Of a stretch of DNA of 64,000 nt, positions 1,849 to 28,468 are shown piece after piece (the first letter of the stretch is position 1; the number at the start of each line of letters is the position of its first letter). The DNA lies in contig NC_087379.1 in NCBI RefSeq assembly GCF_963675165.1, positions 6,279,839-6,343,838 of the forward strand. Direction: 5' to 3'. Source of the DNA: Halichondria panicea (lineage: Eukaryota > Porifera > Demospongiae > Suberitida > Halichondriidae). The position numbers and the translations under genes were made by a program. Under the pieces are notes generated by a model, which saw only the letters and a program-made list of their open reading frames with translations, was not told the origin of the DNA and made no database searches.

Positions 1849-4092
1849 ATGGCCGAGAGAGTGACGACAAAAGAAGCTCTCAAGAAACTCGATGCTCAAC
1901 TCGAATGCTCCCTTTGTCTCGACACTTTCAAGCAGCCGAAACTCTTGCCTTGTTTTCACGTATTTTGCAAGTCCCCGTGTCTGGAGAAACTAGTGACCAA
2001 GGATGGACCCTCCCTCACTTGTCCCACCTGTCGACACATTGTCCCACTGTCAGAGAGGGGAGTGGCTGGACTGCAATCAGACTTCCACATCGACCACTTG
2101 TTTGAGATACAAGATTCTTTCAACAAGGCCAAGGATGAGAATGCTACAAATTGTGGCAACTGTGAGAATGGCAAAGCCACCGGATACTGTAACGATTGTG
2201 GGGACTTTTTGTGTGACAAGTGTCAAGCTGCTCACAAGATAGTTAAATACACACGTGAACATAAACTAATTTCGTTAGATGAACTCAAAGCTCAAGTGAC
2301 TAGCCTGGTTCCCCCAAAGAAAGCCGTCCCCCATTGCCCCAAACACTCGGAGAATTCCCTCAAGATATACTGTGATACCTGCTCCACTCTCATTTGCACG
2401 GACTGCACCATTCGTCTCCACAAAGATCACAACTACGACCTGGTGGCTGATGTGCTGACCAAGCACAAAGAAGAACTTGTCTCCAGTCTCAAACCAGTCA
2501 AAGAGAAGCTGGACAGTGTAAAACGAGCTCTGAAGGACTTTGACGCAAGAGCCAAGGCAATCCACGATCAGAGGGCCACGATTGAAGCTAACATCCACAA
2601 GGAGATTGACGAACAACATCAACTGTTGGACCAACGAAGGGCAGAGGTTGTGGAAGAGCTAGAGATGCTGACTCAGCAGAAGCTGAAGGATCTGGCGGCA
2701 CAGAAGGACCAAGTGGAGATCACTCAAGTGAAACTGACCAGCTGTCTGGAGTACGCTAAAGGGGGTCTCAAAACAGGCACAGACGGTGAAGTACTCGAAA
2801 TAAAATCTTCCTTTGTTAAGAGAGTTAAACAAATCACTGCAGAATTCGAATCATATGCTATTCAGCCAGAGACAAAGGCTGACATGGAACTGATCACTGA
2901 AGGAAAAGAACCTCTCAAACAAGCTTACCAAGATTTCCTAGAAGTTGATCACAATCGATCATTCAGCTTAGAGAACAGCCACATGACAGGAGATTGTCTG
3001 AAAGATGCTACCTCTGAAGAAACAAAAACTTTATCCTATCAAGCAATGACCAAAAATAACAAGAAATTCAAAGACAAACTTAACCTCAAAGCTGAACTTG
3101 TGCATATCGAAAGCAAAGGCATATTGAAATGTGAAGTGATCAAGGAACCACATGGCCAACACAAGATCAACTATCGCCCTGTGAAACGAGGAAAGCATGA
3201 ACTACACATCACTGTCAATGGGGACGCAGTACGAGACAATCCATTCCCAATAGCTGTAGCCCCATCACCACAGAGCTTCGGCAAGCCTTCCCGAGTTGTA
3301 CGAGGTGTGAAAAAACCACAAGGCACTGTCTTCAACAGTAAGGGACAGTTGGTTGTTGTTGGAGGTGATGGAACTACTGTCTCTGTATTGACACCAGAGG
3401 GTGAGAAGATACGAACGTTTGGACAGCTGAATAATGCAAGAGGAGTGACTGTCGACAAAGACGACAACATGTATGTTGTGGAGACCGGCAATCATCGTGT
3501 GAAAAAGTTCTCATCTGACGGAGAATTTATGGCAGCTGTTGGTAGTCACGGCAGTGGTAACCTTAAGTTTCTGCACCCTATTGGTATCTGTTATAGCAGA
3601 AGAGACAACAACCTGTATGTGGCTGATCGGAGTAACCACAGAATACAAGTGCTCTCTACTGAACTTAATTTCGTTCAATGTTTTGGCGCACAAGGCAATG
3701 GGAACAAACAATTATATAATCCACGGCATGCAACATTTGATAGTGCCAACAACCTTTATGTGACTGATAACGGTAACCATCGAGTACAAGTCTTCACTGC
3801 TGAAGGTCAATTCCTGAGAACCTTCTCACAAAAAGCCAACGGTAGGAAGCTGAGTTGTCCCTATGCCATAGCCATCGACAGCAGTGACACAGTGTACGTC
3901 AGTGAGAATGGATCACATCATGGACCACATCATGTGAGCGTGTTCACATCTCAGGGAGCCTACATCACCACGTTTGGTGGACTTGGAACGAAAGAGGAAC
4001 AGTTTAATAACATTTATGGACTTTCGATTGATAGCAATGATTCTGTTGTTGTGTCCGATCAAGGCAACTGGCGACTGCAGATATTCAAATGA
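1849..4092 (+). CDS. TRIM-NHL protein, copy 1 (RING, B-boxes, coiled coil, filamin, NHL repeats)
   Basis: Intronless 747-aa frame starting at ATGG in the context AAAGCCATGG. The RING finger spans residues 20-61 with Cys20, Cys23, Cys35, His37, Cys40, Cys44, Cys58 and Cys61 (C3HC4). Two B-box zinc fingers follow: one with CGNCENGKATGYC and a second near residue 160 with HCPKHSENSLKIYCDTC. A charged coiled coil covers about 200-310. A filamin/ABP280 domain (about 405-475) ends NPFPIAVAPSP. The tail is a set of NHL repeats with recurring NNLYVxDxxNHRVQVF to the C-terminus. This is the TRIM2/3/71 (LIN-41, Brat-like) architecture, known for E3 ubiquitin ligase and RNA-binding roles. The exact orthologue cannot be set, and a sponge-specific expansion is likely. 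A small insert (SHHGPHH) lies in the last NHL blade. Confidence 0.93.
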   Translation: MAERVTTKEALKKLDAQLECSLCLDTFKQPKLLPCFHVFCKSPCLEKLVTKDGPSLTCPTCRHIVPLSERGVAGLQSDFHIDHLFEIQDSFNKAKDENATNCGNCENGKATGYCNDCGDFLCDKCQAAHKIVKYTREHKLISLDELKAQVTSLVPPKKAVPHCPKHSENSLKIYCDTCSTLICTDCTIRLHKDHNYDLVADVLTKHKEELVSSLKPVKEKLDSVKRALKDFDARAKAIHDQRATIEANIHKEIDEQHQLLDQRRAEVVEELEMLTQQKLKDLAAQKDQVEITQVKLTSCLEYAKGGLKTGTDGEVLEIKSSFVKRVKQITAEFESYAIQPETKADMELITEGKEPLKQAYQDFLEVDHNRSFSLENSHMTGDCLKDATSEETKTLSYQAMTKNNKKFKDKLNLKAELVHIESKGILKCEVIKEPHGQHKINYRPVKRGKHELHITVNGDAVRDNPFPIAVAPSPQSFGKPSRVVRGVKKPQGTVFNSKGQLVVVGGDGTTVSVLTPEGEKIRTFGQLNNARGVTVDKDDNMYVVETGNHRVKKFSSDGEFMAAVGSHGSGNLKFLHPIGICYSRRDNNLYVADRSNHRIQVLSTELNFVQCFGAQGNGNKQLYNPRHATFDSANNLYVTDNGNHRVQVFTAEGQFLRTFSQKANGRKLSCPYAIAIDSSDTVYVSENGSHHGPHHVSVFTSQGAYITTFGGLGTKEEQFNNIYGLSIDSNDSVVVSDQGNWRLQIFK

Positions 4093-4380
4093 GATAGCTA
4101 GTGCAGCTAGTCAAGCCAAGAACTTTAAGTGGACTGTGTTTGTAGGTAGCTAATTAGCGGTAATAATTTAATTGTTAGCTGCGTTGTTCTAATGTATGTT
4201 TGTCCATGTTTCTATCAAACTAGGACAGCTTACATGTTTATTTGATATATTATGTGCACTTGTAGCCTATTGTGAAATCCAATTTTGTTTTCGTTATATC
4301 AGCTGTGGGATTTTTTGTGAATGTGCTTCAACACAATCATGCATGATTCAAACTTTACTTTTTTCTTAACACAAATACAG

Positions 4381-5735
4381 CTCTGCGGTACAACCTAGAG
4401 GCGGAGTGGCGTAATAGATACCCCGGGGGAAGGACACCGTACAGAGACGACCTCTTTGAGCTATGCAAGGCGGACATCTTGACCGATCACGAGGTCTCCA
4501 ATCTGCAGGTGAGGGGATACTATACACATACGTATGAAAGGAAATTACAAAACCTGTGTTTAGTGGGTAATATTGACTGCTAACACTTTGAGTGGTGGAC
4601 TGTGTCACTGTGAGTCACTAGTAATAATTATAGTTGTAGCAAGGTTTGTAGTATAGTTGCCTGGTAGCTGATTGCAGTAATGCACTATACGCTTTGCTAT
4701 ATATACCCACTATTCCTTACTTCTATGTCAAATGCATGTCAGTGAGGTACTTATTAATTAACAACGGACACACATTTACAGGTGGTGGTGATTGGAGACC
4801 AGAGTGCTGGCAAGACGAGTGTCCTGGAGATGGTTGCTAATGCTCGTATATTCCCACTGGGAGGAGGGGAGATGATGACTCGTAGCCCCACCATGGTTAC
4901 CCTTAGCAACGGAGCGGAATGAGTTGCTATGGTCTCTCTAATATCAGCCAATGACAAGTTTTAACTACACACATTACTATCAGAGCCAAGTGACAACTAC
5001 AGTACCTATTTTTGTTCCTGCTATTAACATTTTAGCATGCACAATCAATTACCAAAATTATTGAACTGTCAATTCAAAATGTCATCACTGTGTATAATTA
5101 AGTGTGACCTGACATCTGCTGACTATTTAATAGTACTGGTAAGCCTCACACAACTTTATACCTTCAATTACACCTACGTACAAATGCTCTAGAAGATCAT
5201 GTGTTGTCTCTCCTTAAAATTGGCATGTATGACTGTATATTATTTCTGTGATTGACTCAGCACTCTATTTGTACTGGTACATTGTAGATCTATTGTGGTG
5301 CTGTAAAATTGGTACAAAATAATTATACCGGTAGTTGTGACCATGTACTCTTCCACCCCACATGTATGACCTCACCAAGGAGGGGGACCTTTGTAGCCTC
5401 TGCACTGAGATTGAGCGTCAGATGAGAGTCTGCGTCCAATCAGGGAAGACCGTGAGCTCTCAGCCCATCTCCCTCACTGTGTACAGACCCCACCTCAAGT
5501 CTAGTTGACCTCCCTGGGATCATCAGTGTGAGTGTCATGTGACTGTACACTCAAATCATGTGACTGTGTGTATCCGTACAGACTGTGACCACTGGTATGG
5601 CCGTTAACATAAGAGAAGATATCATCAAAATGTGCAGGTGTTTTGTGTGTGTTGAGAATGTAGTGTTGAAAAGTTTAGTAAGTAATTCCTGTTCTTCCAC
5701 AGACAGTACATGCAGAACCCAAATAAGTGCTGTAA
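4381..5735 (+). pseudogene. OPA1-like dynamin GTPase relic, block 1 (several exons)
   Basis: Four or five exon-like pieces match OPA1. At 4381-4507 lies a stalk exon reading ALRYNLEAEWRNRYPGG with an intact GT donor. At 4782-4922 is the P-loop exon ([13 protein letters not shown], then [14 protein letters not shown]), ending in an in-frame TGA. Near 5363-5530 is a YDLTKEGDL exon whose G3 stretch is shortened before LVDLPGI. Near 5575-5632 is a TGMAVNIREDIIKMC piece, then YMQNPN near 5706. The stop, the internal deletion and the position of the stalk exon before the GTPase exons show it is not a working gene. In OPA1 the stalk follows the GTPase domain, so the stalk exon here probably closes an earlier copy. 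Confidence 0.8.
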
Positions 5736-5757
5736 TTAGGTTGCCCTGAGTGCAACC

Positions 5758-5816
5758 TAGTCTCATGAATCAGCCGCACCTTTGGTGTCCAAAGGTGCGG
5801 CTGATTCATGAGACTA
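5758..5816. repeat. Perfect 28-bp inverted repeat with 3-base loop
   Basis: TAGTCTCATGAATCAGCCGC at 5758 begins a 28-base arm repeated exactly in reverse complement at 5789-5816 around a TGT loop. The perfection suggests a recent insertion inside the decayed OPA1 block; the homologous stretch in the next unit (near 11860) lacks it. Confidence 0.85.
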
Positions 5817-5819
5817 AGT

Positions 5820-7790: not shown

Positions 7791-10027
7791 ATGGCCGAGA
7801 GAGTGACTACAAAAGACGCTCTCAAGAAACTTGATGCTCAACTCGCTCCCTTTGTCTCGACACTTTCAAGCAGCCGAAACTCTTGCCTTGTTTTCATGTG
7901 TTTTGCAAGTCCCCGTGTCTGGAGAAACTAGTGACCAAGGATGGACGCTCCCTAACTTGTCCCACCTGTCGACACATTGTCCCACTGTCAGAGAGGGGAG
8001 TGGCTGGACTGCAATCAGACTTCCACATCGACCACTTGTTTGAGATACAAGATGCTTTCAACAAAGCTGAAGACGACAATGATACAAACTGTGGCAGCTG
8101 TGAGGATGGCAAAGCCACTGGATACTGTAACGACTGTAACGACTGTGGGGACTTTTTGTGTGAGGAATGTCAAACTGCTCATAAGAGACTCAAATACACG
8201 AGGAATCATTATCTCATTTCGCTCAACGCACTCAAAGCTCAAATGACGGGCCTGGTTCCCCCCCAAAAAGCCACCCCCAATTGCCCTAAACACTCGAAGA
8301 ATGACCTCAAAATATACTGCGATACTTGCTCCACTCTCATTTGCATGGACTGCACCATTCGTCTACACAAAGACCATAACTACGACCTGGTGGCTGATGT
8401 GCTGACCAAGCACAAGGAAGAACTTGTCTCCAGTCTCAAACCAGTCAAAGAGAAGCTGGACAGTGTACAACGAGCTCTGAAGGACTTTGACACAAGAGCC
8501 AAGGCAATTCACGATCAGAGGACCACGATTGAAGCCAACATCCACAAGGAGATTGGTGAACAACATCGACTGTTGGATCAACGAAGGGCAGAGCTTGTAG
8601 GAGAGCTAGAGATGCTGACTCAGCAAAAGCTGAAGGATCTAGCGGCACAGAGGGACCAAGTGGAGATCACTCAGGTGAAACTGACCAGCTGTCTGGAGTA
8701 CGCTGAGGGGGGTCTCAAAACAGGCACAGACGGTGAAATACTCAAAATGAAATTTTCCGTTGTTAAGAGAGTCGAACAGATCACTACCGAATTCGAATCA
8801 AAAACTATTCAGCCAGAAACAAAGGCTGACATGGAACTGACCACAAAAGGAAAAGAACCTCTCCAACAAGCTTGCCGAGATTTCCTAGAGATTGAACAGC
8901 GTGGATCATTCAGTTTAGAGAACAGCCACACGACAGGAGATGGTCTAAAAGGTGCTACAATTGGAGAAATAAAAACTGTGTCCTTTCAACTAATGACCAA
9001 GAAAAACAAGAAATTCAACGGCAAAAGCAACCTCAAAGCTGAACTTGTGTATATCGTGAGCAAAGACATATTGAAATGTGAAGTGATCGATCAACAACAC
9101 GGTCAACACAAGATCAACTATCGCCCAATGAAACGAGGAAAGCATGAACTACACATCACTGTCAATGGGAACGCAGTACGAGGCAGTCCATTCCCAATAG
9201 CTGTAGCCCCATCACCACAGAGCTTCATCAAGCCTTCCCGAGTTGTACGAGGTGTGAACAAGCCACGAGGCACTGTCTCCAACAGTAAGGGAGAGTTGGT
9301 TGTTGTTGAAGGTGGTGGAGCTACTATCTCTGTATTGACACCAGAGGGTGAGAAGATACGAACGTTCGGAAAGCTGAATAATGCATATGGAGTGACTGTG
9401 GACAAAGACGACAACATCTATGTAATGGAAGTTAACAATCATCGTGTGAATAAGTTCTCATCCGACGGAGAGTTTGTGGCAGCTGGTGGTAGTCTAGGCA
9501 GTGGTAACCTTCAGTTTAGTGGCCCACTTGGTATTTGTTACAACAGAAGAGACAACAACCTGTATGTGCCTGATCAGAGTAACAACAGAATACAAGTGCT
9601 CTCTACTGAACTGAATTTCGTACGATGTTTCGGTACACCTGGCAAAGGGAACGGACAATTACAAAGCCCATTATATGCAGCATTTGATAGTGCCAATAAC
9701 CTCTATGTGACTGAGTACACTAACCATCGAGTACAAGTCTTCACTGCTGAAGGTCAATTCCTGAGAACCTTCTCACAAAAAGCCAACGGTCATCAGAAGC
9801 TGAGCTCACCCTATGCCATAGCCATCGACAGCAGTGACACAGTGTACGTTAGTGAGAATGGACTGTATCATGTGAATGTGTTCACATCTCAAGGAGCATA
9901 CATCACCACGTTTGGCGGACCAGGAACGAAAGAAGGACAGTTTAATAACATTTACGGACTCTCTATTGATCGCAATGACTCCGTTGTTGTATCCGATGAA
10001 GGCAACGAGCGACTACAGATATTCTAA
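7791..10027 (+). pseudogene. TRIM-NHL copy 2 with 4-bp deletion in the RING finger
   Basis: The conserved start ATGGCCGAGAGAGTGAC is at 7791, but compared with the sister copies four bases (AATG) are missing after CTCAACTCG near 7844. The frame shifts before the first two RING cysteines. The remaining frame is open from about 7883 to 10027 (714 aa from an internal Met), so it could still make a protein lacking the first half of the RING but keeping B-boxes, coiled coil, filamin and NHL repeats. It also has a 9-base tandem insertion duplicating CND in the first B-box. Either a recent pseudogene, a RING-less variant, or an assembly error. Confidence 0.8.
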
Positions 10028-10286
10028 CGAGATAAGTGCAGTCAAGCCAAGATCTTTTAAGTAGACTATGCGTTGTAATTAATTTGTGCTCTAATGGAAC
10101 ATCTTGAAATAGTTGTTACAAAGTTTGTTTCTATGTTTGTAGCCATGTTTCTATCGAACTTGGACCACTTGCGGCGTATTTTGAAATCCAATTTTGTTCT
10201 CGTTATTAGCTGTGCGATTTTTTGTGAATGTTTATTCAGCACAATCGCATTTAAACTTTACAAATGTACTTGTTTTCAACTCGAAT

Positions 10287-10345
10287 ACAGCTCTGCGGTA
10301 CAACTTATATATAGAGGCTGAGTGGCGTAATGCATCCTGGGGGGG
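10287..10345 (+). pseudogene. OPA1-like stalk exon remnant, unit 2
   Basis: The sequence TACAGCTCTGCGGTACAACT followed by AGGCTGAGTGGCGTAATGCA matches the start of the stalk exon seen at 4381, at the same position relative to the TRIM stop codon. The rest is lost. Confidence 0.65.
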
Positions 10346-10633
10346 AGTACAAGCGCTTACATAAGTTAAAGTTATGAAATTGTTGTTCAAAACGAAAATG
10401 TGTGTAATATATATCTATCTTTGCTTGTAATGCTAACACTTTGAGTGGTAAACTGTACGTGCGTGTGAGTGGATGCAACTAGAAATATATAGCAAGGTTT
10501 TCAATCTATTTGCTAGCTGATTGCAGTAATAATATAAACTACACGCCTTCAAGGCTTGCTACCCACTGTTCAATATACTCCCATAGCCCAATTATTATAT
10601 CTAATGCATGTTAGTGAAGTACTCTAACAACAG

Positions 10634-10914
<281 letters not shown>

Positions 10915-10929
10915 GACATGCACTTGCAG

Positions 10930-11828
10930 GTGGTGGTGGTTGGAGACCAGAGTGCTGGCAAGACGAGTGTCCTGGAGATGGTTGCTAATGCTCGTATATT
11001 TCCCACAGGGAGGAGGGGAGATGATGACTCGTAGCCCCACCATGGTTACCCTTAGCAACAGACCTGAGTGTGTTGCAATGGTCTCTCTATTACTATTAAT
11101 GTCAGCCAATGACAAGTTTGAACTACATACACACCATGCACACATGTACACCTACGTAGATCCCAAATGCTCTAAACATTTATACATGTATATGTGTTGT
11201 CTCTCCTTAAAAATTGGTACGTATGACTGTCTGTGTTTAACTCAGCACTCTATTTGTACTGGTACTGACTTTTACTGTGGTGCTGTAAAATTTGGTTGAT
11301 GGCATGTACGTCGATTCACTGCATGTAAATTGTCTCTAACATTCATAGCTATATAATAAATTCATTGGGTACCCGTACAAGATATAGTGACGTAATGTGA
11401 CCATGTACTCTCCCAGCCCACAGGTGTATGACCTCACCAAGGAGGGGGACCTTTGTGCCATCCGCACCGAGATTGAGCGTCAGATGAGGGTCAGCGTTCA
11501 ATCAGGGAAGACCATGAGCTCTCAGCCCCATCTCCCTTACCATGTACATCTCCCTTACCATGTACGGGCCCCACCTCAAGAGAATGGTCCTGGTCGACCT
11601 CCCAGGGATCATCTTGTGTGTCATGTGAGTGTACACTCAAATAATGTGACTGTGTGTATCCGTACAGACTAGTATGGCCGCTAACACAAAAGATGAGATC
11701 ATCAAAATGTGCAGGTGTGTTGTGTGTGTGGTGACTGTAGTGTGGAAGGTGTAGTCAGTAATTCCTGTTCTTCCACAGACAGTACATGCAGAACCCAAAC
11801 GCCATCATCATGACTTGTGCAAGGTATA
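10930..11828 (+). pseudogene. OPA1-like dynamin GTPase relic, block 2
   Basis: A P-loop exon at 10930 reads [17 protein letters not shown], but one extra T in the run CGTATATTTCCC shifts the frame relative to unit 1. Near 11422 comes the next exon, YDLTKEGDLCAIRTEIERQM, with a small tandem duplication (CATCTCCCTTACCATGTA twice near 11530-11565), then LKRMVLVDLPGII (G3 motif). TGMA..TKDEIIKMC near 11672 and YMQNPNAIIMTCA near 11786 complete the series. The order matches the GTPase domain of OPA1. The frameshift and insertion indicate decay. Confidence 0.8.
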
Positions 11829-13030
11829 AGTGCTGTAGTTGAAGCTTATGGTTACGGTGGCCCTGAGTGCTACCAATATTACAGTTCATTTAGCTACAGC
11901 CTTTCAAAGTTGGTAGTTCTGTGTCACACAGAGTCTACCCTTAAATAAACAACTGCGCTTCACTCCCAATTAATTCACGGTAGCATTATTAATTCTATTA
12001 CGTAGTCTATAGTGCTTTTGTACCACTGCCTCCTCCTACATGTATTAACCTCTGTACCCACTTTTTGCTCCTATTAACTTTCTCAAGAAAGCTTGTTTGT
12101 GCTCTGAAACAGTTTCAAAATGCTAGGTACATTGCATTGTAGCTATCAACTTCAATTTCAACTCACTATAATTATGTACTATCATGGTACATTGCACATC
12201 GGGGAGGGGGCGATGTTCTGTAAAGTTAGGTCGACATTACCACTAAGCTATAATAAGCTATTTTCTGTCCTTCCCTATAAAAACAATATTTTGATGCATA
12301 CAGGGAAGGACAGAAAATATCAAATATTGTTTAACCCTTTAACCGAATAAAATGGTGCAACATGTGTTGCCATAACAACCATGGTTATTACGCTCACCCG
12401 TTTTTATCATTTTAAATGCTCGGCCAGCGGTGAGATAAAATCCAAAAATTGATTTTTTATGGATCAGCCTATCATATGGTATAAAGGCTTGACTAAGCTT
12501 GATTTTCACATCATATGAATGTAACAATGTTAAGATATATCAATTTGAAGTACAATACGTACATGTATTACTATATCGGTGAACGATCTACGAAACAAGC
12601 TCACATAAAGACTGTTCATTACTGCTAATTCTATTTTAGCTATACTATACTCACTACTGATATTCTAGCTATACTATACTACTTGCCAGAGTCACACAGT
12701 GAGCCCTCTCCTGGTCTTTCACCGTCCTGGTCCATAGCGCTAGCGTCTAGGTCCATGTCATGCATGTCCTCAGGAGAGCAGTGCAGGATTGGCTATTTAT
12801 ACTATTTATACTTAGGATGTTATACACATAGAGGTTTTACATGGTTCTATACACATTATACACATGTTATATTGCATAGAGTGATGTATAAAGTCACAAA
12901 TTACCACCATAATCTAGTATAATAATTATGACTCAGTTTCTTGTGTATTGTCTACTATTTCAGTATGATGTCATTGTTTTGATAGTCAGCATTCATAAAT
13001 ACCAGTATAATGTGCATAACATGCATAATT

Positions 13031-13428: not shown

Positions 13429-13430
13429 AT

Positions 13431-16778: not shown

Positions 16779-18998
16779 ATGGCCGAGAGAGTGACGACAA
16801 AAGAAGCTCTCAAGAAACTCGATGCTCAACTTGAATGCTCCCTTTGTCTCGACACTTTCAAGCAACCGAAACTCTTGCCTTGTTTTCACGTATTTTGCAA
16901 GTCCCCATGTCTGGAGAAACTAGTGACCAAGGATGGATGCTCCCTCACTTGTCCCACCTGTCGACACATCGTCCCACTATCGGAGAGGGGAGTGGCTGGA
17001 CTGCAATCAGACTTTCACATCGACCACTTGTTTGAGATACAAGATGCTTTCAACAAAGCTGAAGACGACAATGATACAAACTGTGGCAGCTGTGAGGATG
17101 GCAAAGCCACTGGGTACTGTAACGATTGTGGGGACTTTTTATGTGACGAATGTCAAACTGCTCACAAGAGACTCAAATACACAAGGAATCATAAACTAAT
17201 TTCGCTGGATGAACTCAAAGCTCAAGTGACTAGCCTGGTTCCCCCCAAGAAAGCCGTCCCCCATTGCTCCAAACATTCGGAGAATGCCCTCAAGATATAC
17301 TGTGATACTTGCTCCACTCTCATTTGCATGGACTGCACCATTCGTCTCCACAAAGACCACAACTACGACCTGGTGGCTGATGTGCTGACCAAGCACAAAG
17401 AAGAACTTCTCTCCAGTCTCAATCCAGTCAAAGAGAAGCTAGACAGTGTACAACGAGCTCTGAAGGACTTTGACACAAGAGCCAAGGCAATCCACAATCA
17501 GAGGGCCGCGATTGAAGCCAACATCCACAAGGAGATTGACGAACAACATCGATTGTTAGATCAACGAAGGGCAGTGCTTGTAGGAAAGCTAGAGATGCTG
17601 ACTCAGCAGAAACTGAAGGATCTGGCGGCACAAAGGGACCAAGTGGAGATCACTCAGGTGAAACTGACCAGCTGTCTGGAGTACGCTGAGGGGGGTCTCA
17701 AAACAGGCACAAACGGTGAAGTACTCGAAATGAAAACTTCCGTTCTCAAGAGAGTCAAACAAATTTCTACTGAATTCGATCGAAACACAATTCAGCCAGA
17801 AACAAAGGCTGACATAGAAATGATCACAAAAGGAAAAGAACCTCTCCAACAAGCTTGCCGAGATTTCCTAGAGATTGATCACAGTGGATCATTCAGCTTA
17901 GAGAATAACCACATAACAGGAGATGGTCTGAAAGGTGCTACAACTGGAGAAACAAAAACTGTATCCTTTCAAGCAAAAACCAGAAATGTCAAACGCAAAC
18001 TCGACCTCAAAGCTGAACTCGTGCGTTTGGAGAGCAAAGATATATTGAAATGTGAAGTGATCGATCAACAACACGGCCAACACAAGATCAACTATCGCCC
18101 AATGAAACGAGGAAAGCATGAACTACACATCACAGTCAATGAGGACGCAGTACGAGGCAGTCCATTCCCAATAGCTGTAGCCCCATCACCACAGAGCTTC
18201 GTCAAGCCTTCCCGAGTTGTACGAGGTGTGAACAGCCCACGAGGCACTGTCTACAACAGTAAGGGACAGTTGGTTGTTGTTGAAAGTGGTGGAGCTACTG
18301 TCTCTGTATTGACACCAGAGGGTGAGAAGATACGAACGTTTGGGCAGCTGAATAATGCATTTGGAGTGACTGTGGACAAAGACGACCAAATTTATGTAGT
18401 GGAGTATGCCAATCATCGTGTGAATAAGTTCTCGTTCGACGGAGAGTTTGTGGCAGCCGTTGGTAGTTCAGGCAGTGGTAACCTTCAGTTTAGTAACCCA
18501 TTTGGTATCTGTTATAACAGAAAAGACAACAACCTGTATGTTCCTGATCAGTGTAACCACAGAATACAAGTGCTCTCTACTGAACTGAAGTTCGTACGAT
18601 GTTTCGGCACACCTGGCAATGGGAACGGACATTTAAAGCAACCACTGTATGCTACATTTGATAGTGCCAACAACCTCTATGTGACTGAGTTTGCTAACAA
18701 TCGAGTACAAGTCTTCACTGCCGAAGGTCAATTCCTGAGAACCTTCTCACAAAAAGCCAATGGTCAGAAGTTGAGCTCACCCTATGCCATAGCCATCGAC
18801 AGCAGTGACACAGTCTACGTCAGTGAGAATGGACCGAATCATGTGAGTGTGTTCACATCTCAGGGAGCCTACATCACCACGTTTGGTGGGTTAGGAACGA
18901 AAGAGGGACAGTTTAATGGCATTTATGGATTCGCTATTGATTGCAATGACTCTATTGCTGTATCTGATATGAACAACGGGCGACTGCAGATATTTTAG
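16779..18998 (+). CDS. TRIM-NHL protein, copy 3
   Basis: Intronless 739-aa frame with the same start context (AAAGCCATGG) and architecture as copy 1: C3HC4 RING at residues 20-61, two B-boxes (CGSCEDGKATGYC and HCSKHSENALKIYCDTC), coiled coil, filamin domain ending SPFPIAVAPSP and NHL repeats. All RING ligands are present, so it should be a competent E3 ligase module. Differences from the sister copies cluster in the NHL blades (for example VVEYANHRVNKFSFDG) and in the linker around residues 380-400 (SFQAKTRNVKRKLDL), while RING and coiled coil are almost unchanged. It lies just downstream of a transposon inserted in its 5' spacer. The orthologue name is uncertain. Confidence 0.93.
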   Translation: MAERVTTKEALKKLDAQLECSLCLDTFKQPKLLPCFHVFCKSPCLEKLVTKDGCSLTCPTCRHIVPLSERGVAGLQSDFHIDHLFEIQDAFNKAEDDNDTNCGSCEDGKATGYCNDCGDFLCDECQTAHKRLKYTRNHKLISLDELKAQVTSLVPPKKAVPHCSKHSENALKIYCDTCSTLICMDCTIRLHKDHNYDLVADVLTKHKEELLSSLNPVKEKLDSVQRALKDFDTRAKAIHNQRAAIEANIHKEIDEQHRLLDQRRAVLVGKLEMLTQQKLKDLAAQRDQVEITQVKLTSCLEYAEGGLKTGTNGEVLEMKTSVLKRVKQISTEFDRNTIQPETKADIEMITKGKEPLQQACRDFLEIDHSGSFSLENNHITGDGLKGATTGETKTVSFQAKTRNVKRKLDLKAELVRLESKDILKCEVIDQQHGQHKINYRPMKRGKHELHITVNEDAVRGSPFPIAVAPSPQSFVKPSRVVRGVNSPRGTVYNSKGQLVVVESGGATVSVLTPEGEKIRTFGQLNNAFGVTVDKDDQIYVVEYANHRVNKFSFDGEFVAAVGSSGSGNLQFSNPFGICYNRKDNNLYVPDQCNHRIQVLSTELKFVRCFGTPGNGNGHLKQPLYATFDSANNLYVTEFANNRVQVFTAEGQFLRTFSQKANGQKLSSPYAIAIDSSDTVYVSENGPNHVSVFTSQGAYITTFGGLGTKEGQFNGIYGFAIDCNDSIAVSDMNNGRLQIF

Positions 18999-19330
18999 AT
19001 ACTGCAGTCAAGCCAAGAACTTAAAGTGACTGTGTTTGTGGACTGTGTTTGTAGGTTTAATAGCGTTAATAATGTTTAGCTGCGTTGTAATTAATTTGTG
19101 TTCTATTTTGAAGTATGTATATAAATGTTACAAAGTTTATTGCTATGTTTGTAGCCATGTTCCTATGTTCCTATCGAACTTGGACCATGTTTGTAGCTTG
19201 AATAAGTGCACTTGCAGCGTATTTTGAAATCCAATTTTGTTCTCGTTATCAGCTGTATGATTTTTTGTGAATGTTTCAGCACAATCACGATTATTTCATT
19301 CAAACTTTACTTGTTTTTTAACTCGAATGC

Positions 19331-19376
19331 AGCTCTGTGGTACATGTAACTTGAGGCTGAGTGGCGTATTGCACCC
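19331..19376 (+). pseudogene. OPA1-like stalk exon remnant, unit 3
   Basis: GCAGCTCTGTGGTACATGTA followed by AGGCTGAGTGGCGTATTGCA matches the beginning of the stalk exon at 4381, again about 330 bases after a TRIM stop codon. Only the first part is recognisable. Confidence 0.6.
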
Positions 19377-19775: not shown

Positions 19776-19800
19776 GTGTTTAGTAACGAGAATGTGCGTA

Positions 19801-20035: not shown

Positions 20036-20204
20036 CTAAACCTTCTCTTCAATCTATTTGTACTAGTACTTTTACTGTGGTGCTGTAAAATTTGGTTGAT
20101 GGTATTGCATACGTCGATCCACGACTTGTAAATTGTCTCTAACATTCATAGCGGGTACCCGTACAAGACTCGATATAGTGATGCCATGTACTCTTCCACC
20201 CCAC

Positions 20205-20470
20205 AGGTTGTATGACCTTACCAAGGAGGGGGACCTTCGTAGCATCTGCACTGAGATTGAGTGTCCGATGGAGAGTCAAGTCAGCGTCCAATCAGGGAAG
20301 ACCATGAGATCTCAGCCTATCTCCCTCACTGTGTACGGACCCCACCTCAAGAGAATGGTCCTGGTCTACCTCCCAGAGATTGTCAGTGTGAGTGTCATGT
20401 GACTGTGTGTATCCCTACAGACTGGTATGGCCATTAACACATGAGAAGAGATAATCAAAATGTGCAGGTG
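20205..20470 (+). pseudogene. OPA1-like relic, block 3 (switch-region exons)
   Basis: The exon encoding YDLTKEGDLRSICTEIE is present near 20208, then SQPISLTVYGPHLKRMVLVY, where the G3 Asp-Leu-Pro-Gly of the family has become YLPE (LVYLPEIVS). A TGMAINT..EEIIKMC piece follows near 20420. No P-loop exon is seen before it. The G3 change and missing exons show decay. Confidence 0.7.
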
Positions 20471-20507
20471 TGTTGTGATATATAGTACATAATTCCTGTT
20501 CATTATT

Positions 20508-20632
20508 CATTACGTTTGGTGGGTCAGGAACGAAAGAGGGACAGTTTAGGAGCATTTACGGACTCTCTATTGATTGCAATGACTCTATTGTTGTGTCTGA
20601 TCAAAACAATGGGCAACTTCAGATATTCTAAT
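20508..20632 (+). pseudogene. C-terminal NHL relic of a TRIM-NHL gene
   Basis: The frame reads TFGGSGTKEGQFRSIYGLSI and on to DQNNGQLQIF followed by TAA, identical in style to the last NHL blade of the full copies. Immediately upstream is OPA1-like intron sequence (TAATTCCTGTTC), so a deletion has joined the two. Only the last 40 or so codons of the gene remain. Confidence 0.8.
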
Positions 20633-21097
20633 GAAATGATTATATTTTAATGAGATAAGAACTTTAGAGTGTCAGTTAATTTGTGTTCTAGTCTGAAATC
20701 CAACAAGCGAACCTGGGGTTTAGCTTAGTGTGAAATGGTTGTAACAGTACGTCTTTAAGTTTGGATATGTTTGAAATCTATGGTTATTAGCTGTGAATTA
20801 ATTGTCTGTTTTAGCACATGAAGTATGCGTGGAAAATTCACTGTTTACTTGATTCTCTTTATTGCACTCACACTCTGCCAGCACATGTCATTAATATGTT
20901 ACAAATGGTTCAGTGGATGCTGAGAGGAGAATAATAATTATATTTGACAGTCAGATGGACCTAGAAGGTTCCTATAGATGCCTGTATACTGTTTGAACTA
21001 TTACTGTTGTGTTTGTGTGTATCCTCAATACCTACACAGCCTTGTCTAACCTCAAAACTTTTGTCACGATTTCCAGCGCTGTTTCTCTTTTTATCAA
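20633..21097. other. TRIM 3' flank, shared with the flanks at 23570 and 28470
   Basis: No gene is seen. A block beginning TTAGCACATGAAGTATGCGT and containing CACTCTGCCAGCACATGTCA lies here, at about 23750 and at about 28615, each time downstream of an NHL terminus. It marks a second type of repeat unit in the array. Confidence 0.65.
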
Positions 21098-21292
21098 GGC
21101 TCTCGTACGATATTTGTGCTCACCAAAGTTGACCTGGTGGAGAAGGGTGCATGGAGTCAAACAAGACAGAGTGAATGTGTGACCAATCAGATTGATGCTA
21201 TAAAACTGATTACCCCTGCAGATGCTCTCAATTCTGGATGGCCAGTTGTTCTCAATGAAGGCTTTGGATACTATGCCTGGTTACTGGGAGAG
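21098..21292 (+). pseudogene. OPA1-like relic, G4 exon
   Basis: The sequence reads GSRTIFVLTKVDLVEKGAWS, then LNSGWPVVLNEGFGYYAWLLGE before a GTATGT donor. FVLTKVDL is the G4 guanine-specificity motif as found in OPA1, and the following part resembles its KALGYFAVVTG segment. Part of the segment between has diverged. Its place after an NHL relic fits a TRIM gene once lying in an intron between the YMQNPNAI exon and this one. Confidence 0.7.
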
Positions 21293-22118
21293 GTATGTAT
21301 ATGTATGTGTACTGTACTTATCATGAACTGTTACACTCTAGCAGAGCAGTTTTCTAAGTGATTTTGTTTTCATGTGTCCTAATTGTTAATGTGTATAGAA
21401 TGTATAGGGAGTCCATCAACAATCAGGCACTGCACTTTAAGAGCTAGTGCGCATGCGTTGGATATTAATATTGTACATAACCATGATAACTATAGTGAAC
21501 TGGGCTTCGACTCTTTAATAGCTGGTTCTTTATAATCATGGATTTTATATGTGAGCACGTTAGACTTTGAATCTAAGTTTAATACTCGGCAGGACCTTTA
21601 TTTTTTTATAGTGCAGTGCTCATTGCAATTCTGCATGTCGCTATATATTCAGTACACATTTTCTGAGATAGTGGCAAGCTAGCGAATTCTGGCAGGTCAA
21701 CAGGTCGGACATTCAGAAAGCACTCAATTGCAAAGACACAGCAATTAAAGAGACTGACTGCATGTGTGAACCTTCTATATGTAGTATCTTCCGTTTGCAT
21801 AATTATTATTTTAGTGATTGTCATACAAACTGTAGGGTCATCAAAATATCTCAACTATTAAGTACGCGGTATGAAGTTTTTGCACAACTACACCTACGCA
21901 TGTATATCCCTACTATGCTCTAAACGTTCATCCATGTATTGTCTCCATTGTCTCTACTCATGTGTACATGACTTGTGGGGTGCTGTAAAATAGGTTGGGT
22001 GGTATGTACATGCATATGCATATACATTCATAGCTATTAATCGACTTTAATATTAATGTACACCCGTATATAAGATAGTGACGTAACGTGGCCATATACT
22101 CTCCCACCCCATGCACAG
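21293..22118. other. Duplicated spacer, no gene
   Basis: AT-rich sequence whose blocks recur at 24420-24735 and 28735-29170 (for example GGACCTTTATTTTTTTATAG and CAATCAGGCACTGC). Short open frames here are not conserved between copies. I see nothing coding. Confidence 0.55.
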
Positions 22119-22400
22119 GTGTATGACCTCACCAAGGAGGGGGCCTTCGTAGCCTCTGCACTGAGATTAAGCGTCAGACGAGGGTCAGCGTCCAATCAGG
22201 GAAGACCGTGAGCTCTCAGCCCATCTCTCTCACCGTATACAGACCCCACTTCAAGAGAAAGGTCCTGGTTGACCTCCCAGAGATTGTCAGTGTGAGTGTC
22301 ATGTGACTGTACACTCAATCATGTTACTGTGTATAGACGGTGACCACTGATATGGTCGCTAACACAAGAGAAGATGTCATCAAAATGTGCAGGTGTGTTG
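22119..22400 (+). pseudogene. OPA1-like relic, block 4
   Basis: GTGTATGACCTCACCAAGGA begins the YDLTKEG exon; one G is missing after AGGAGGGGGCC, so the frame shifts before the TEI stretch. The G3 region reads LVDLPEIVS, with the Gly of DLPG changed to Glu. A TDMVANTREDVIKMC piece follows near 22340. Clearly decayed. Confidence 0.7.
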
Positions 22401-23029
22401 TGTGTGGTGACTGTAGTGTGGAAAGTGTCTAGTAATTCCTGTTCATTAATTTTAGCTTTTATACTAGTACTTTTGGCATTCTTTTTAGCACCATTGCTAT
22501 CATGGTCAATTATTTCCCACTATTGAGTTTCCCTGTAATTCCGTGATTATTATGCGGCAAAGTCTCGAGACTAGCAATAATGTAGTAGCAATCAGTAGCT
22601 TTATGTTATGTCAACGTATACCGAGGTATTCAGCACCCGCGGTGCTTTCGTATATATTCTTCAAGTGTTCAAACAATTTTTAGGGAATTCTGCAACAGCT
22701 TGAAAAGCTGTTGCATATAATTATAAGAGCTTATCAACTTTAGAGTCAACTCACGGTTAGCACTCAGGGCCTCGTAAAATACAACAATTACGACCCAGCC
22801 TCTCATGTATACGATATGGTGCATTGCACATGAGGGAATGTGAAATTGTGGGAATTGTGGACTGAAATTGTTTGCAGTTTTAGTGTATATAACTAAAACT
22901 GCAATGTATTGATCATCGAACGTGATATTGAAAGCACAAATATCACTTGTACATTGACCATTGGGGGGAGAGGCTGTAAAATTGAAATTTATGACTTTTG
23001 CGGGTGACCACGCTAGATCTACGGTGTGT
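22401..23029. other. Spacer with dispersed repeat, no gene
   Basis: 22445-22660 carries the dispersed repeat described at 24950 (TTTTGGCATTCTTTTTAGCA and CAGCACCCGCGGTGCTTTC). 22740-23025 matches the spacer 25330-25640 upstream of TRIM copy 4 (AAACTGCAATGTATTGATCA, GATCTACGGTGTGT), so this is the former promoter side of the deleted TRIM gene that follows. Confidence 0.6.
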
Positions 23030-23567
23030 TGGTAGTCGAGGCAGTGGTAACCTTCAGTTTAGTGACCCATTTGATATTTGTTACAACAGAAGAGACAACA
23101 ACCTGTATGTGACTGATAATTGTAACCACAGAATACAAGTGCTCTCTACTGAACTAAAGTTCGTACGATGTTTCGGTACACCTGGCAATGGGAACAGACA
23201 ATTACAAAACCCACTGTATGCATCATTTGATAGTGCCAACAACCTCTATGTTACTGAGTACATTAATCATCGAGTACAAGTCTTCACTGCTGAAGGTCAA
23301 TTCCTGAGAACCTTCTCACAAAAAGCCAACGGTCAGAAGCTGAGTTATCCCTATTCCATAGCCATCGACAGCAGTGACACAGTGTACGTCAGTGAGAATG
23401 GACCGCATCATGTGAGTGTGTTCACATCTCAGGGAGCCTACATCACCACGTTTGGTGGGCAAGGAACGAAAGAGGGACAGTTTAATGGCATTTATGGACT
23501 CGCTATTGATAGCATTGATTCTGTTGTTGTGTCCGATCAAGACAACGGGCGACTACAGACATTCTAA
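23030..23567 (+). pseudogene. 5'-truncated TRIM-NHL relic (NHL repeats only)
   Basis: About 178 codons of intact NHL repeats run from GSRGSGNLQFSDPFDICYN to DQDNGRLQTF and a TAA stop. Upstream, the sequence up to GATCTACGGTGTGT is spacer that in unit 4 lies more than 600 bases before the TRIM start. A deletion of the RING, B-boxes, coiled coil, filamin domain and first NHL blades has therefore fused spacer directly to the NHL part. No suitable ATG is in frame near the junction. The frame remains open, so the deletion is probably recent. Confidence 0.85.
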
Positions 23568-24210
23568 TGAGATAAGAAGTTTAGAGTGTCAGGTACTGTG
23601 TACATTTTTTGTGGTGTTAATTTGTGTTCTAGTCTGAAATCCGACAAGTGAACCTGGTTTGGCTTAGTGTGAAAATTGTTGTAATAGTACGTCTTTAAGT
23701 TGATTTGTTTGAAAATCTGTGGTTATCAGCTGTGAATTAATTGTCTGTTTTAGCACATGAAGTATGCATGGAAAATTCACTGTTTACTTGATTCTCTTTA
23801 TTGCACTCACACTCTGCCAGCACATGTCATTAATATGTTACAAATGGTTCAGTGGATGCTGAGAGAATCATAATATTATATTGACAGACATTGTCAGTCA
23901 ACTATGGTCAAATGGACCCAGAATTAGATTGCCTGTACTGTCGGGTTACCTCAAACTATTACTGTTGTATTAGTGTGTACACTCAATACCTACACAGCCT
24001 TGTCCTCGTAACTGCCTTACTAATACTAATATAATACCTACACAGCATTGTCCTCGTGACTGCCTTACTGATACTAATATAATACCTACACAGCCTTGTC
24101 CTCGTGACTGCCTTACTGATACTAATACCTACACAGCCTTGCATTGTCTAACCTCAAAACTCTTGTCAGGATTTCCAGCGCTGTTTTATAATTATCTCTC
24201 CTTTTCTCGA
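23568..24210. repeat. TRIM 3' flank plus a triplicated tandem repeat (23987-24140)
   Basis: 23570-23985 matches the flank at 20633. From 23987, the unit TACCTACACAGCCTTGTCCT with CGTGACTGCCTTACTGATAC is repeated three times with a period near 50 bases. In the sister unit (near 21035) only one copy of CCTACACAGCCTTGTC is found, so the expansion is local. Confidence 0.75.
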
Positions 24211-24402
24211 GGCTCTGGTACGATATTTGTGCTCACCAAAGTTGACCTGGCGGAGAAGGGTGGAGTCAAACAAGACAGGGTGAGTGTGTGTGACCAATCA
24301 GATTGATGCTATATAACTGATTGCCCCTGCAGATGCTCTCAATTCTGGATGGTCAGTTGTTCTCAATGAAGGCCCTTGGATACTATGCCTGGTTACTGGG
24401 AG
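24211..24402 (+). pseudogene. OPA1-like relic, G4 exon, second copy
   Basis: GGCTCTGGTACGATATTTGT begins the same exon as at 21098 (GSGTIFVLTKVDLAEKG). Downstream, GGAGTCAAACAAGACAGGGT has lost bases and acquired a GTGAGTGTG stretch, and the last part (ALGYYAWLLGE) carries extra bases relative to the copy at 21230. Decayed and out of frame. Confidence 0.7.
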
Positions 24403-24765
24403 AGGTATGTATATATATATATATGTGTACTGTACTTATCATGAACTGTTACACTCTAGCGGAGCAGTTTTCTAAGTGATTTTGTGTTCATGTGTCCTAA
24501 TTGTTAATGTGTATATAGAATGTATAGGGAGTCCATCAACAATCAGGCACTGCGCTTTAAGAGCTAGTGTGCATGCGTTGGATATTAATATTGTACATAA
24601 CCATGATAACTATAGTGGGCTTCGACTGGTTCTTTCTAATTATGGATTTTTATATGTGAGCACGTTAGACTTTGAATCTAAGTTCAATTCTTGGCAGGAC
24701 CTTTATTTTTTTATAGTACAGCTCGTGATTTTCTGCATATTCTACGGTGGCCCTGAGCGCTACTA

Positions 24766-24931
24766 GTAGTTCACCTTAGCTACTTAATAGTTCACCTACC
24801 TTAGCTACTTGATAGTTCGCCTACCTTAGCTACTTGATAGTTCAACTACCTAAGTTTGTAAGTTCAACAACCTTAGCTACTTGATAGTTGACCTACCTTC
24901 GCTGCTTGATAGTTCACCTACCTTAGCTAAA
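24766..24931. repeat. Tandem repeat, about 25-bp unit
   Basis: The unit AGTTCACCTACCTTAGCTAC with TTGAT is repeated about six times with drift. The unit sister at 11880 has a single GTTCATTTAGCTACAGCC. Confidence 0.75.
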
Positions 24932-24949
24932 ACAAAATTCAAGAGTTTG

Positions 24950-25270
24950 AACAGAGCTGCAAGCCTCTGCTGACGTGACATGATGCAGCAGCCATTAATT
25001 TTAGCTTTTATACTTGTACTTTTGGCATTCTTTTTAGCACCAATTGCAATCATGGTCAATCATTTCCCACTATTGAGTTTTCCCGTAATTCCGTGATTAG
25101 TTATAAGCGGCAATAATTAGTCGCGAGACTAGCAATAATTATTACCTATAAATTATTGTGTGTATTAGCAATAGCTATACTAGTAGCTTTATGTTATGTC
25201 AGCTATGACACATTACACCGAGGTATTCAGCACCCGCGGTGCTTTCATATATATATTCTTTCAGTTAAGT
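24950..25270. repeat. Dispersed repeat shared with 22445-22660 and (inverted) 55265-55500
   Basis: The block contains CAGCCATTAATTTTAGCTTT, TTTTGGCATTCTTTTTAGCA, ATCATGGTCAATCATTTCCC and ends with GCACCCGCGGTGCTTTC. A shorter version is at 22445-22660, and a reverse-complement version lies in an intron of the spermidine-synthase-like gene near 55265-55500. It is non-coding and presumably a transposon. Confidence 0.65.
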
Positions 25271-26245
25271 GTTCAAACAATTTTTAGGGAATTCTGCAAC
25301 AGCTATAGGTACATATAATTACAGGAGCTATCAACTTCAGAATCAACTCAAGGTTAGCACTCAGGGCCTCGTAAAATACAACAATTACGACCCAGCCTCT
25401 CATGTATACGATATGGTGTATTGCACATGGGGGAATGTGAAATTGTGGGAATTGTGGACTGAAATTGTTTGCAGTTTTAGTGTATTTACTAAAACTGCAA
25501 TGTATTGATCATCGAATGTTGATATTGAAAGCACAAATATAATAATCCAGTTTTCTATACTTGTACATTGACCATTGGGGGGAGAGGCTGTAAAATTGAA
25601 GTGTATGACTTTTTGCGGGTGACCACGCTAGATCTACGGTGTGTGTAAGTGGTTTCGTTATTGTATTGCAACAGTAGACTTGTAGCAGCTCGATTTTTTT
25701 TGAAAAAGAGAAGTTGAAGAGCACATCAAAATGTGCGAATACTGTGTAGAATGCTTGGTTAAGTAGTCGGTTCTAGTCTGAGTTTGTGAATTTTTATCAA
25801 GCCTGGAGAGTAGAGGGAACAACACATCTTCCTGCTATTGTGGAAATGGTTGCTATGAATATTGTTACATTATTGACATCTGGTGAATCTCACATGACAT
25901 TCTGTGTTGCTTCTCTTAATAATTCTAGCTGAATGTCCTACACAAGGAATTGTGAGTTTATCCCTTAATGTGCTGACTTGTATGACTGTACATGTGTTGA
26001 CTGTCTGTATGTGTGCTAGTATGTGTACTAGGAATGAATAATATGAATATAAATACCGTACTTCTTCGCAATAAGGCACCCCCTGAGAATTTGCATACAT
26101 GTAGAACCGTATAAATTTTGAATACACTAGATCAAGTGGCACCTTTAATATTTAGAAGAAAATTAATACAGTGCAGTTTGTAAAACTTCAATTTTCCTCA
26201 CATGCCAGTAAGAAGCCTTACAAGACTTGATCATATCCCAAAACC
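25271..26245. other. Spacer upstream of TRIM-NHL copy 4, no gene
   Basis: 25330-25640 is shared with 22740-23025. 25850-25990 is shared with the 5' spacers of copies 2 and 3 (GAATATTGTT, then GAATTGTGAGTTTATCCC). A short insertion near 26055-26155 with ACCGTACTTCTTCGCAATAA looks like a MITE piece. No coding signal is seen. Confidence 0.55.
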
Positions 26246-28468
26246 ATGGCCGAGAGAGTGACGACAAAAGAAGCTCTCAAGAAACTCGATGCTCAACTTG
26301 AATGCTCCCTTTGTCTCGACACTTTCAAGCAGCCGAAACTCTTGCCTTGTTTTCATGTGTTTTGTAAGTCCCCGTGTCTGGAAAAACTAGTGACCAAGGA
26401 TGGACGCTCCCTCACTTGTCCCACCTGTCGACACGTTGTCCCACTGTCAGAGAGGGGAGTGGCTGGACTGCAATCAGACTTCCACATTGACCACTTGTTT
26501 GAGATACAAGATGCTTTCAACAAGGCCGATGATACAAACTGTGGCAGCTGTGAGGATGGCAAAGCCACCGGATACTGTAACGACTGTGGGGACTTTTTGT
26601 GTGACAGGTGTCAAGCTGCTCACAAGTTTGTTAAATACACTCGTCAACATAAACTGATTTCGCTGGATGAACTGAAAGTTCAAGTGACTAGTCTGGTTCC
26701 CCCCAAGAAGGCTGTCCCCCATTGCCCCAAACACTCGGGGAATGACCTCAAGATATACTGCGATACCTGCTCCACACTCATTTGCATGGACTGCACCATT
26801 CGTCTCCACAAAGACCACAACTACGACCTGGTGGCTGATGTGCTGACCAAGCACAAAGAAGAACTTGTCTCCAGTCTCAAACCAGTCAAAGAGAAGCTGG
26901 ACAGTGTACAACGAGCTCTGAAGGACTTTGACACAAGAGCCAAGGCAATCCACAATCAGAGGGCCGCGATTGAAGCCAACATCCACAAGGAGATTGATGA
27001 ACAACATCGACTGTTAGATCAACGAAGGGCAGAGCTTGTAGGAGAGCTAGAGATGCTGACTCAGCAGAAACTGAAGGATCTGGCGGCACAAAGGGACCAA
27101 GTGGAGATCACTCAGGTGAAACTGACCAGCTGTCTGGAGTACGCTGAGGGGGGTCTCAAAACAGGCACAGACGGTGAAGTACTCGAAATGAAAACTTCCG
27201 TTCTCAAGAGAGTCAAACGAATTTCTACTGAATTCGATCGAAACACAATTCAGCCAGAAACAAAGGCTGACATAGAACTGATCACAAAAGGAAAAGAACC
27301 TCTCCAACAAGCTTGCCGAAGTTTCCTAGAGATTGATCACAGTGGATCATTCAGCTTAGAGAACAGCCACACGACAGGAGATGGTCTGAAAGGTGCTACA
27401 ACTGGAGAAACAAAAACTGTATCGTTTAAAGCAAAAACCAAGAGTAACAGAAATGTCAAACGCAAACTCGACCTCAAAGCTGAACTCGTGCATTTGGAGA
27501 GCAAAGATATATTGAAATGTGAAGTGATCGATCAACAACACGGCAAACATAAGATCAACTATCGCCCAATGAAACGAGGAAAGCATAAACTACACATCAC
27601 TGTCAATGAGGACGCAGTACGAGGCAGTCCATTCCCAATAGCTGTAGCCCCATCACCACAGAGCTTTGTCAAGACTTCCCGAGTTGTACGAGGTGTGAAC
27701 AGTCCACGAGGCACTGTCTTCAACAGTAAGGGACAGTTGGTTGTTGTTGAAAGTAATGGAGCTACTGTCTCTGTATTGACACCAGAGGGTGAGAAGATAC
27801 GAACGTTTGGTCAGCTGAAGAATGCACATGGAGTGACTGTGGACAAAGACGACAAAATTTATGTAGTGGAGAATGGCAATCATCGTGTGAATAAGTTCTC
27901 ATCCGCCGGAGATTTTGTTAAAGTTAGTGGTAGTCAAGGCAATGGTAACCTTCAGTTGTATATCCCAGTTGGCATCTGTTATAACAGAAGAGACAACAAC
28001 TTGTATGTGGTTGATCAGGGTAACCACAGAATACAAGTGCTTTCCACTGATTTGAAGTTCATACGGTGTTTCGGTACACAAGGCAATGGGAACGGACAAT
28101 TACAAAACCCACTGTATGCATCATTTGATAGTGCCAACAACCTCTATGTGACTGATCGTGGTAACCATCGAGTACAAGTCTTCACTGCTGAAGGTCAATT
28201 CCTGAGAACAACCTTCTCACAAAAAGCCAACGGTCAGAAGCTGAACTCACCCTGGGCCATAGCCGTCGACAGCAGTGACACAGTGTACGTCAGTGAGAAT
28301 GGACCGAATCATGTGAGTGTGTTCACATCTCAGGGAGCCTACATCACCACGTTTGGTGGGCATGGAACGAAAGAGGGACAGTTTAATAACATTTATGGAC
28401 TCTCTATTGATCGCAATGACTCTATTGTTGTATCCGATCAAGACAACGGGCGACTGCAGATATTCTAA
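26246..28468 (+). CDS. TRIM-NHL protein, copy 4
   Basis: Intronless 740-aa frame starting ATGG after AAAACC. RING C3HC4 (residues 20-61), two B-boxes (CGSCEDGKATGYC; HCPKHSGNDLKIYCDTC), coiled coil, filamin domain ending SPFPIAVAPSP and NHL repeats are all present. The linker after the RING is three codons shorter than in copies 2 and 3 (NKADDTNC). Near residue 400 it carries KTKSNRNVKRKLDL, otherwise close to copy 3. NHL blades again differ most (VVENGNHRVNKFSSAGDFVK). The 5' flank lacks the shared CCTCACAG acceptor block. It is expected to act as an E3 ligase or RNA/protein scaffold like other TRIM-NHL proteins, but the target is unknown. Confidence 0.93.
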   Translation: MAERVTTKEALKKLDAQLECSLCLDTFKQPKLLPCFHVFCKSPCLEKLVTKDGRSLTCPTCRHVVPLSERGVAGLQSDFHIDHLFEIQDAFNKADDTNCGSCEDGKATGYCNDCGDFLCDRCQAAHKFVKYTRQHKLISLDELKVQVTSLVPPKKAVPHCPKHSGNDLKIYCDTCSTLICMDCTIRLHKDHNYDLVADVLTKHKEELVSSLKPVKEKLDSVQRALKDFDTRAKAIHNQRAAIEANIHKEIDEQHRLLDQRRAELVGELEMLTQQKLKDLAAQRDQVEITQVKLTSCLEYAEGGLKTGTDGEVLEMKTSVLKRVKRISTEFDRNTIQPETKADIELITKGKEPLQQACRSFLEIDHSGSFSLENSHTTGDGLKGATTGETKTVSFKAKTKSNRNVKRKLDLKAELVHLESKDILKCEVIDQQHGKHKINYRPMKRGKHKLHITVNEDAVRGSPFPIAVAPSPQSFVKTSRVVRGVNSPRGTVFNSKGQLVVVESNGATVSVLTPEGEKIRTFGQLKNAHGVTVDKDDKIYVVENGNHRVNKFSSAGDFVKVSGSQGNGNLQLYIPVGICYNRRDNNLYVVDQGNHRIQVLSTDLKFIRCFGTQGNGNGQLQNPLYASFDSANNLYVTDRGNHRVQVFTAEGQFLRTTFSQKANGQKLNSPWAIAVDSSDTVYVSENGPNHVSVFTSQGAYITTFGGHGTKEGQFNNIYGLSIDRNDSIVVSDQDNGRLQIF

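Follow-up and report, generated by a model that had tools for sequence, protein, structure and literature searches.

The DNA stretch analysed here (the window; 64,000 nucleotides of Halichondria panicea contig NC_087379.1, hereafter C3, at C3:6279839-6343838) holds the tail of an array that is probably a tandem one, with a TRIM-NHL gene as the repeated core and an internal piece of OPA1 as the passenger. From a start about 85 kb ahead of the window, the array runs to about window position 29154, so that its whole span is about C3:6,194,000-6,309,000, and it contains at least 76 OPA1 exon copies. We searched the genome (131,455,214 bases in 39 contigs) at the DNA and protein levels with the first TRIM copy of the window as query, and found 14 long TRIM-NHL copies and four NHL relics on the plus strand of C3:6201364-6308303. 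Of the 48 matches to an OPA1 query in the genome, 45 fall within C3:6.19-6.31 Mb and two at C3:5.11 Mb; the last, a dynamin-like match of 35%, is on contig C11. Compared with human OPA1, the exons of the array reach E values as low as about 1e-28, whereas neither of the two stretches used as controls (C3:6120001-6190000; window 30001-64000) contains an OPA1 match at E≤1e-3, and the OPA1 exons in the array are thus more than chance. The array is flanked by an intact OPA1 at its head and by a relic of the last OPA1 exon at its tail. About 15 kb within it (C3:6266500-6281600) carry neither a TRIM copy nor an OPA1 match.

The intact OPA1 at the array head, for which the earlier note had proposed a search, has no TRIM in its introns. 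Spliced alignment to human OPA1 traced this gene (copy A; C3:6193371-6199883) along a 22-exon path with one doubtful exon of 2 bp, covering human residues 214-960 without a stop or frameshift although the aligner permitted both. Since GT or GC with AG was imposed by the aligner, the GT-AG splice sites are no independent evidence. The 754-aa product contains the GTPase domain (Dynamin_N, E 1e-38) and the OPA1 C-terminal domain (OPA1_C, E 6e-96). Human residues 79-213 found no alignment upstream of copy A, and residues 1-78 were outside the query. The longest intron of copy A is only 694 bp, and therefore none of its introns holds a TRIM gene. A second, 3'-rich OPA1 copy (C3:6221883-6226365) resembles copy A over three pieces, of 1.3 kb (93% identity), 2.0 kb (89%) and 1.2 kb (98%), but frameshifts disrupt its P-loop exon and stops its G3 exon. 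Beyond the array, the genome-wide OPA1 query revealed no second intact OPA1, only a broken piece at C3:5.11 Mb and the C11 match. A dynamin-type match at C3:7.26 Mb was considered as an OPA1 locus and rejected, there being no OPA1 match at that place.

In the window, sequence searches confirmed the four TRIM-NHL copies and two NHL relics alternating with OPA1 exons that the earlier note had described, all on the plus strand (window positions are given below, with matching positions in copy A prefixed A:). RING, zf-B_box, Filamin and NHL domains score above the Pfam cut-offs in TRIM copies 1 and 4, the two that were scored, and predict the TRIM-NHL type of ubiquitin ligase. Copy 1 (1849-4092; 747-aa open frame) is followed by the second stalk exon (LRYNLEAEW...) with part of the next intron (4362-4564; A:6196638-6196836, 84.9%), by the P-loop (G1) exon with one in-frame TGA (4764-4931), and by the G3 exon, the next exon and the start of the YMQ exon (5358-5723; A:6194379-6195175). 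Copy 2 (~7791-10027), which had been taken for an open gene, turned out to have a 4-bp deletion near codon 19, beyond which the sequence is no longer in frame with the ATG. Past it lie part of the second stalk exon (10273-10343; A:6196639-6196705, 79.5%), a frameshifted P-loop exon (10923-11080) and the G3, next and YMQ exons with 20 bp of the following intron (11418-11845; up to A:6195218). A long CA/GT repeat at 10624-11151 creates a spurious Cys-Val open reading frame on the minus strand. Copy 3 (16779-18998; 739-aa open frame) precedes the first part of the second stalk exon (19313-19368; A:6196637-6196689, 82.1%) and a G3 exon reading YLPE with part of the next exon (20201-20477). The two relics come next: relic 1, a last NHL blade (20500-20628), with decayed DGSV, G4 and next exons starting 263 bp past it (20891-21296; A:6195731-6196178, 79.6%), and, beyond a G3 exon reading DLPE with its next exon (22114-22444), relic 2, the 3' part of a TRIM with a 189-aa open frame (22998-23567), with the DGSV, G4 and next exons starting 266 bp past it (23830-24408). 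Copy 4 (26246-28468; 740-aa open frame) is followed, 227 bp past its last codon, by a scrap of the DGSV exon (28692-28740; A:6195731-6195779, 93.9%), and the relic of the last OPA1 exon (EKLDTFREAL) with the sequence following it (29016-29154) forms the tail of the array. The regularities noticed at the outset were all recovered: the same stalk exon after copies 1-3, starting 273, 249 and 318 bp past the last TRIM codon; an exon block with G4 after both relics; P-loop and/or G3 exons in the spacers upstream; and an altered G3, DLPE or YLPE in several units where the intact gene reads DLPG.

Comparison of the units with copy A, over the 18 TRIM copies and relics (14 long copies and four relics), located the boundaries between TRIM and OPA1. 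Upstream of TRIM, the OPA1 region starts with the P-loop exon and ends with the YMQ exon. The nearest upstream OPA1 piece is the G3/YMQ block in 12/18, and in eight of those 12 the match breaks off 9-20 bp after the YMQ exon, inside the following intron (A:6195207-6195218). Downstream, the match restarts at A:6195731-6195740, just ahead of the DGSV exon (6195745) and 227-266 bp past the last TRIM codon, in seven of the 18. It restarts at A:6196637-6196663, just ahead of the second stalk exon and 249-421 bp past TRIM, in seven others, which lack five OPA1 exons, and elsewhere in four. In copy A, a single 546-bp intron separates the YMQ exon from the DGSV exon. In type I units, the guest TRIM lies between two consecutive host exons, as a nested gene does, and the host copy is non-functional. 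The interior of the YMQ-DGSV intron of copy A was not found in the units, and there is no clean empty site; either the insertion replaced this interior, or the interior has diverged.

The downstream DGSV junction recurs 1.1 Mb from the array. At C3:5109192-5111417, a TRIM of the same subfamily is followed, starting 216 bp past it, by the DGSV, G4 and C-terminal OPA1 exons in order, these exons being broken by stops and frameshifts. These observations support the idea that the junction is common to the units and was not created afresh in each copy. The alternative that OPA1 fragments were separately inserted into a pre-existing TRIM array could draw on the same-subfamily TRIM arrays next door that have no OPA1 match, and on the units with inverted OPA1 pieces (six scraps on the minus strand, most others sharing one strand). 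It is made very improbable by junction positions common to eight and seven units and to the locus 1.1 Mb away, and by the regular order and strand of the OPA1 exons. The earlier note had named two observations that together would refute its own reading, a TRIM-free intact OPA1 locus and independent insertion of the OPA1 fragments; the first was found, the second was not, the junctions being common. Its proposal that the TRIM genes sit in introns of tandemly duplicated OPA1 copies holds for the site, a single intron, given consecutive exons as type I flanks and a junction common to copies. It needs changing for the host, which would be a duplicate, and for the units, which are an internal segment and not OPA1 gene copies: the array fragments comprise only P-loop to second stalk exons, and a complete exon set and open frame are absent.

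How TRIM reached this intron may be read from its leader. By eye, a splice-donor-like GTGAGT motif stands ~200-250 bp ahead of the ATG in 12 of the 14 array copies, and also in the TRIM copies from C3:5.96 Mb, 5.11 Mb and 6.05 Mb; window copy 1 is among the two that lack it. An acceptor-like CAG ahead of the ATG is missing in three of the 14 and in the 5.11-Mb copy. The common motif fits DNA duplication that included the putative leader and promoter. Retrocopying of TRIM into an OPA1 intron, which the single-exon coding region (734-747 aa) might suggest, seems very improbable, since the leader is common to TRIM copies at three other loci and single-exon TRIM frames are common in the Halichondria panicea genome.

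Ten of the 14 long TRIM copies are open over their full length (734-747 codons). Among the others, the copy at C3:6255641 stops after 651 codons, that at C3:6213510 changes frame near residue 651, that at C3:6243006 lacks residues ~219-333, and that at C3:6287685 is window copy 2 with its 4-bp deletion. Across 76 copies of OPA1 exons, on the other hand, six stops and 40 frameshifting gaps were counted (the DGSV exon was excluded from the stop, frameshift and dN/dS counts). The earlier picture of passengers with open frames in a decayed host thus stands in part, with window copy 2 broken and the two dN/dS ranges overlapping. Among 11 TRIM copies, dN/dS is 0.38 (0.33-0.45), with 0.12 in the RING, 0.21 in the B-box, 0.29 in the coiled coil, 0.75 in the filamin domain and 0.50 in the NHL domain; among the OPA1 fragments themselves it is 0.46 (0.34-0.61). 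Owing to the overlap, dN/dS was rejected as a means of separating TRIM from OPA1 pieces. The variable columns of the OPA1 fragments by codon position are 67/277, 56/279 and 92/277 (p 0.0014), and their singletons are distributed 33:37:63, a third-position excess with p 0.002 raw and 0.025 after base/CpG correction.

Could the OPA1 pieces still function, as small GTPase-domain proteins, as RNA, or as a promoter or leader for TRIM? The dN/dS of 0.46, the third-position excess and the P-loop and G3 exons ahead of most TRIM copies would be consistent with this. However, the stops and frameshifting gaps, the loss of G3 (DLPE) in several units and the TRIM copies of other arrays that do without OPA1 make such function improbable, and dN/dS can fall below 1 through mutation bias, through the choice of well-aligned pieces and because the pieces once belonged to a working OPA1. 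The fragments are broken as OPA1, yet these data do not show that every piece has decayed neutrally ever since it arose.

The NHL blades vary in a repeated register. Sites with at least four residues make up 13 of the 40 positions that the other five blades predict as variable, but 8 of the 152 remaining ones (p 1.4e-5). dN/dS at the predicted variable positions is 1.00 (0.57-1.69), and 0.43 elsewhere; a value of about 1 falls short of proving positive selection. The variable residues (for instance in window 26246-28468) fall at the same places of the blades, ahead of the GxxxD strand and of the N-H-R motif. Furthermore, junction type does not account for the branching of the TRIM tree, whose halves are in conflict, and this suggests exchange between TRIM copies.

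Arrays of the same TRIM subfamily with other passengers lie nearby. With 60 of 323 candidate TRIM loci scored, so that all counts are lower bounds, copies 82-91% identical number at least ten at C3:5.885-5.960 Mb (plus strand) and at least eight at C3:5.996-6.061 Mb (minus strand), and others occur at C3:5.11 Mb and on contig C9. The two interleaved arrays span C3:5883984-5960302 and C3:5994055-6080946, outside the window. In the first, a MED18-like piece (10 places) lies 156-201 bp past nine of the ten listed TRIMs, and the C-terminal part of a dihydroxy-acid/6-phosphogluconate dehydratase (ILVD; Pfam E 2.3e-34) lies 483-777 bp ahead of nine of the ten, the tenth having it at 3.9 and 4.9 kb. 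In the second, a USP5-like piece lies 0.38-2.1 kb downstream of all eight listed TRIMs, and a ninth such piece (C3:6080642-6080946) adjoins no listed TRIM. The MED18-like call rests on a PDB match with E 1.5e-4, its Pfam score of 17.2 bits being below the cut-off of 21. The identity of the USP5-like piece is tentative: its sole PDB match at E≤10 has E 0.18 over two collinear stretches, and no Pfam family was found. Like OPA1, these three passengers are on the strand of TRIM. On contig C9 there is a single TRIM of the subfamily (86%), at C9:3948743-3951765, that has the dehydratase piece ahead of it; this is a copy, on a different contig, of one unit from the C3:5.9 Mb array. For an OPA1 trace past TRIM in the minus-strand array, the score was reached by 0/500 shuffles with the 5.11-Mb flank, 1/500 with one unit, 20/500 with copy A and 259/500 with another unit; in addition, the flanks may have 3' sequence of TRIM itself in common. 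As judged from these alignments, the pairing is not specific to OPA1, pieces of other genes being carried by neighbouring arrays of the same subfamily.

The tandem TRIM-OPA1 array probably arose as follows. OPA1 would have been duplicated, one copy persisting intact at the array head. Because this copy carries no TRIM, the TRIM-NHL gene presumably entered a duplicate; its position is the YMQ-DGSV intron, and it would have arrived there in DNA form, together with a 5' leader of its own. The segment from the P-loop exon through TRIM to the second stalk exon is repeated head to tail, possibly by unequal crossing-over or a similar process, and later changes would include deletions (giving the type without five OPA1 exons), inverted scraps and exchange between copies. 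The OPA1 pieces would then be junk carried along while the TRIM proteins were kept, with RING, B-box and coiled coil conserved by dN/dS and filamin and NHL freer, and this has probably yielded a set of ubiquitin ligases whose binding faces differ. The same process would have run with other genes in the neighbouring arrays.

More speculatively, TRIM-NHL may be a core that captures passengers serially, each copy landing in or beside a same-strand gene, with tandem duplication then multiplying TRIM together with a slice of that gene. The array would be a reservoir of ubiquitin ligases that differ on the face of the NHL propeller, at equivalent positions of each blade, perhaps as a recognition (immune) repertoire; we regard this extension as possible, though rather doubtful. 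If the history proposed above for the TRIM-OPA1 array is right, growth of the core-duplicon kind, best known from primates, would occur in a small animal-type genome, each growth step would be readable from dated passenger pieces, and the OPA1, dehydratase, MED18-like and USP5-like scraps would mark the start and growth of each TRIM array. For annotation, such exon scraps should not be counted as extra OPA1, MED18 or USP5 genes.

No published report of a TRIM/OPA1 pairing or of such TRIM arrays was among the listed matches in open-licence papers, which is not proof of absence. By their domains (RING, B-boxes, filamin and NHL), the array copies resemble TRIM subfamily C, that is TRIM2/3/32/71 with NHL; they differ from it, as described there, in forming large local arrays with passenger pieces (PMC3503706). 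Nested genes are whole genes within the intron of another, often on the opposite strand (PMC3786989), and are common in some sponges, the genome of a glass sponge being rich in them (PMC10282587). As in these accounts, TRIM is a whole gene within an OPA1 intron, but guest and host share a strand, the copy that acts as host is broken, and the guest was multiplied together with a piece of its host. The primate core duplicons LCR16a/NPIP, as portrayed in the source cited, have one expanding, fast-evolving core gene with flanking passengers that differ per location (PMC7419210). Similarly, we found the same TRIM core beside different passenger genes or gene parts at different places: OPA1; ILVD with a MED18-like piece; and a USP5-like piece. 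Unlike the primate duplicons of that account, the TRIM arrays are short, head-to-tail and on one chromosome, with units of ~6-10 kb in an animal-type genome far from primates, and the TRIM core sits in the intron of its passenger. With these differences, the TRIM/OPA1 array may be viewed as a tandem relative of the primate core duplicons.
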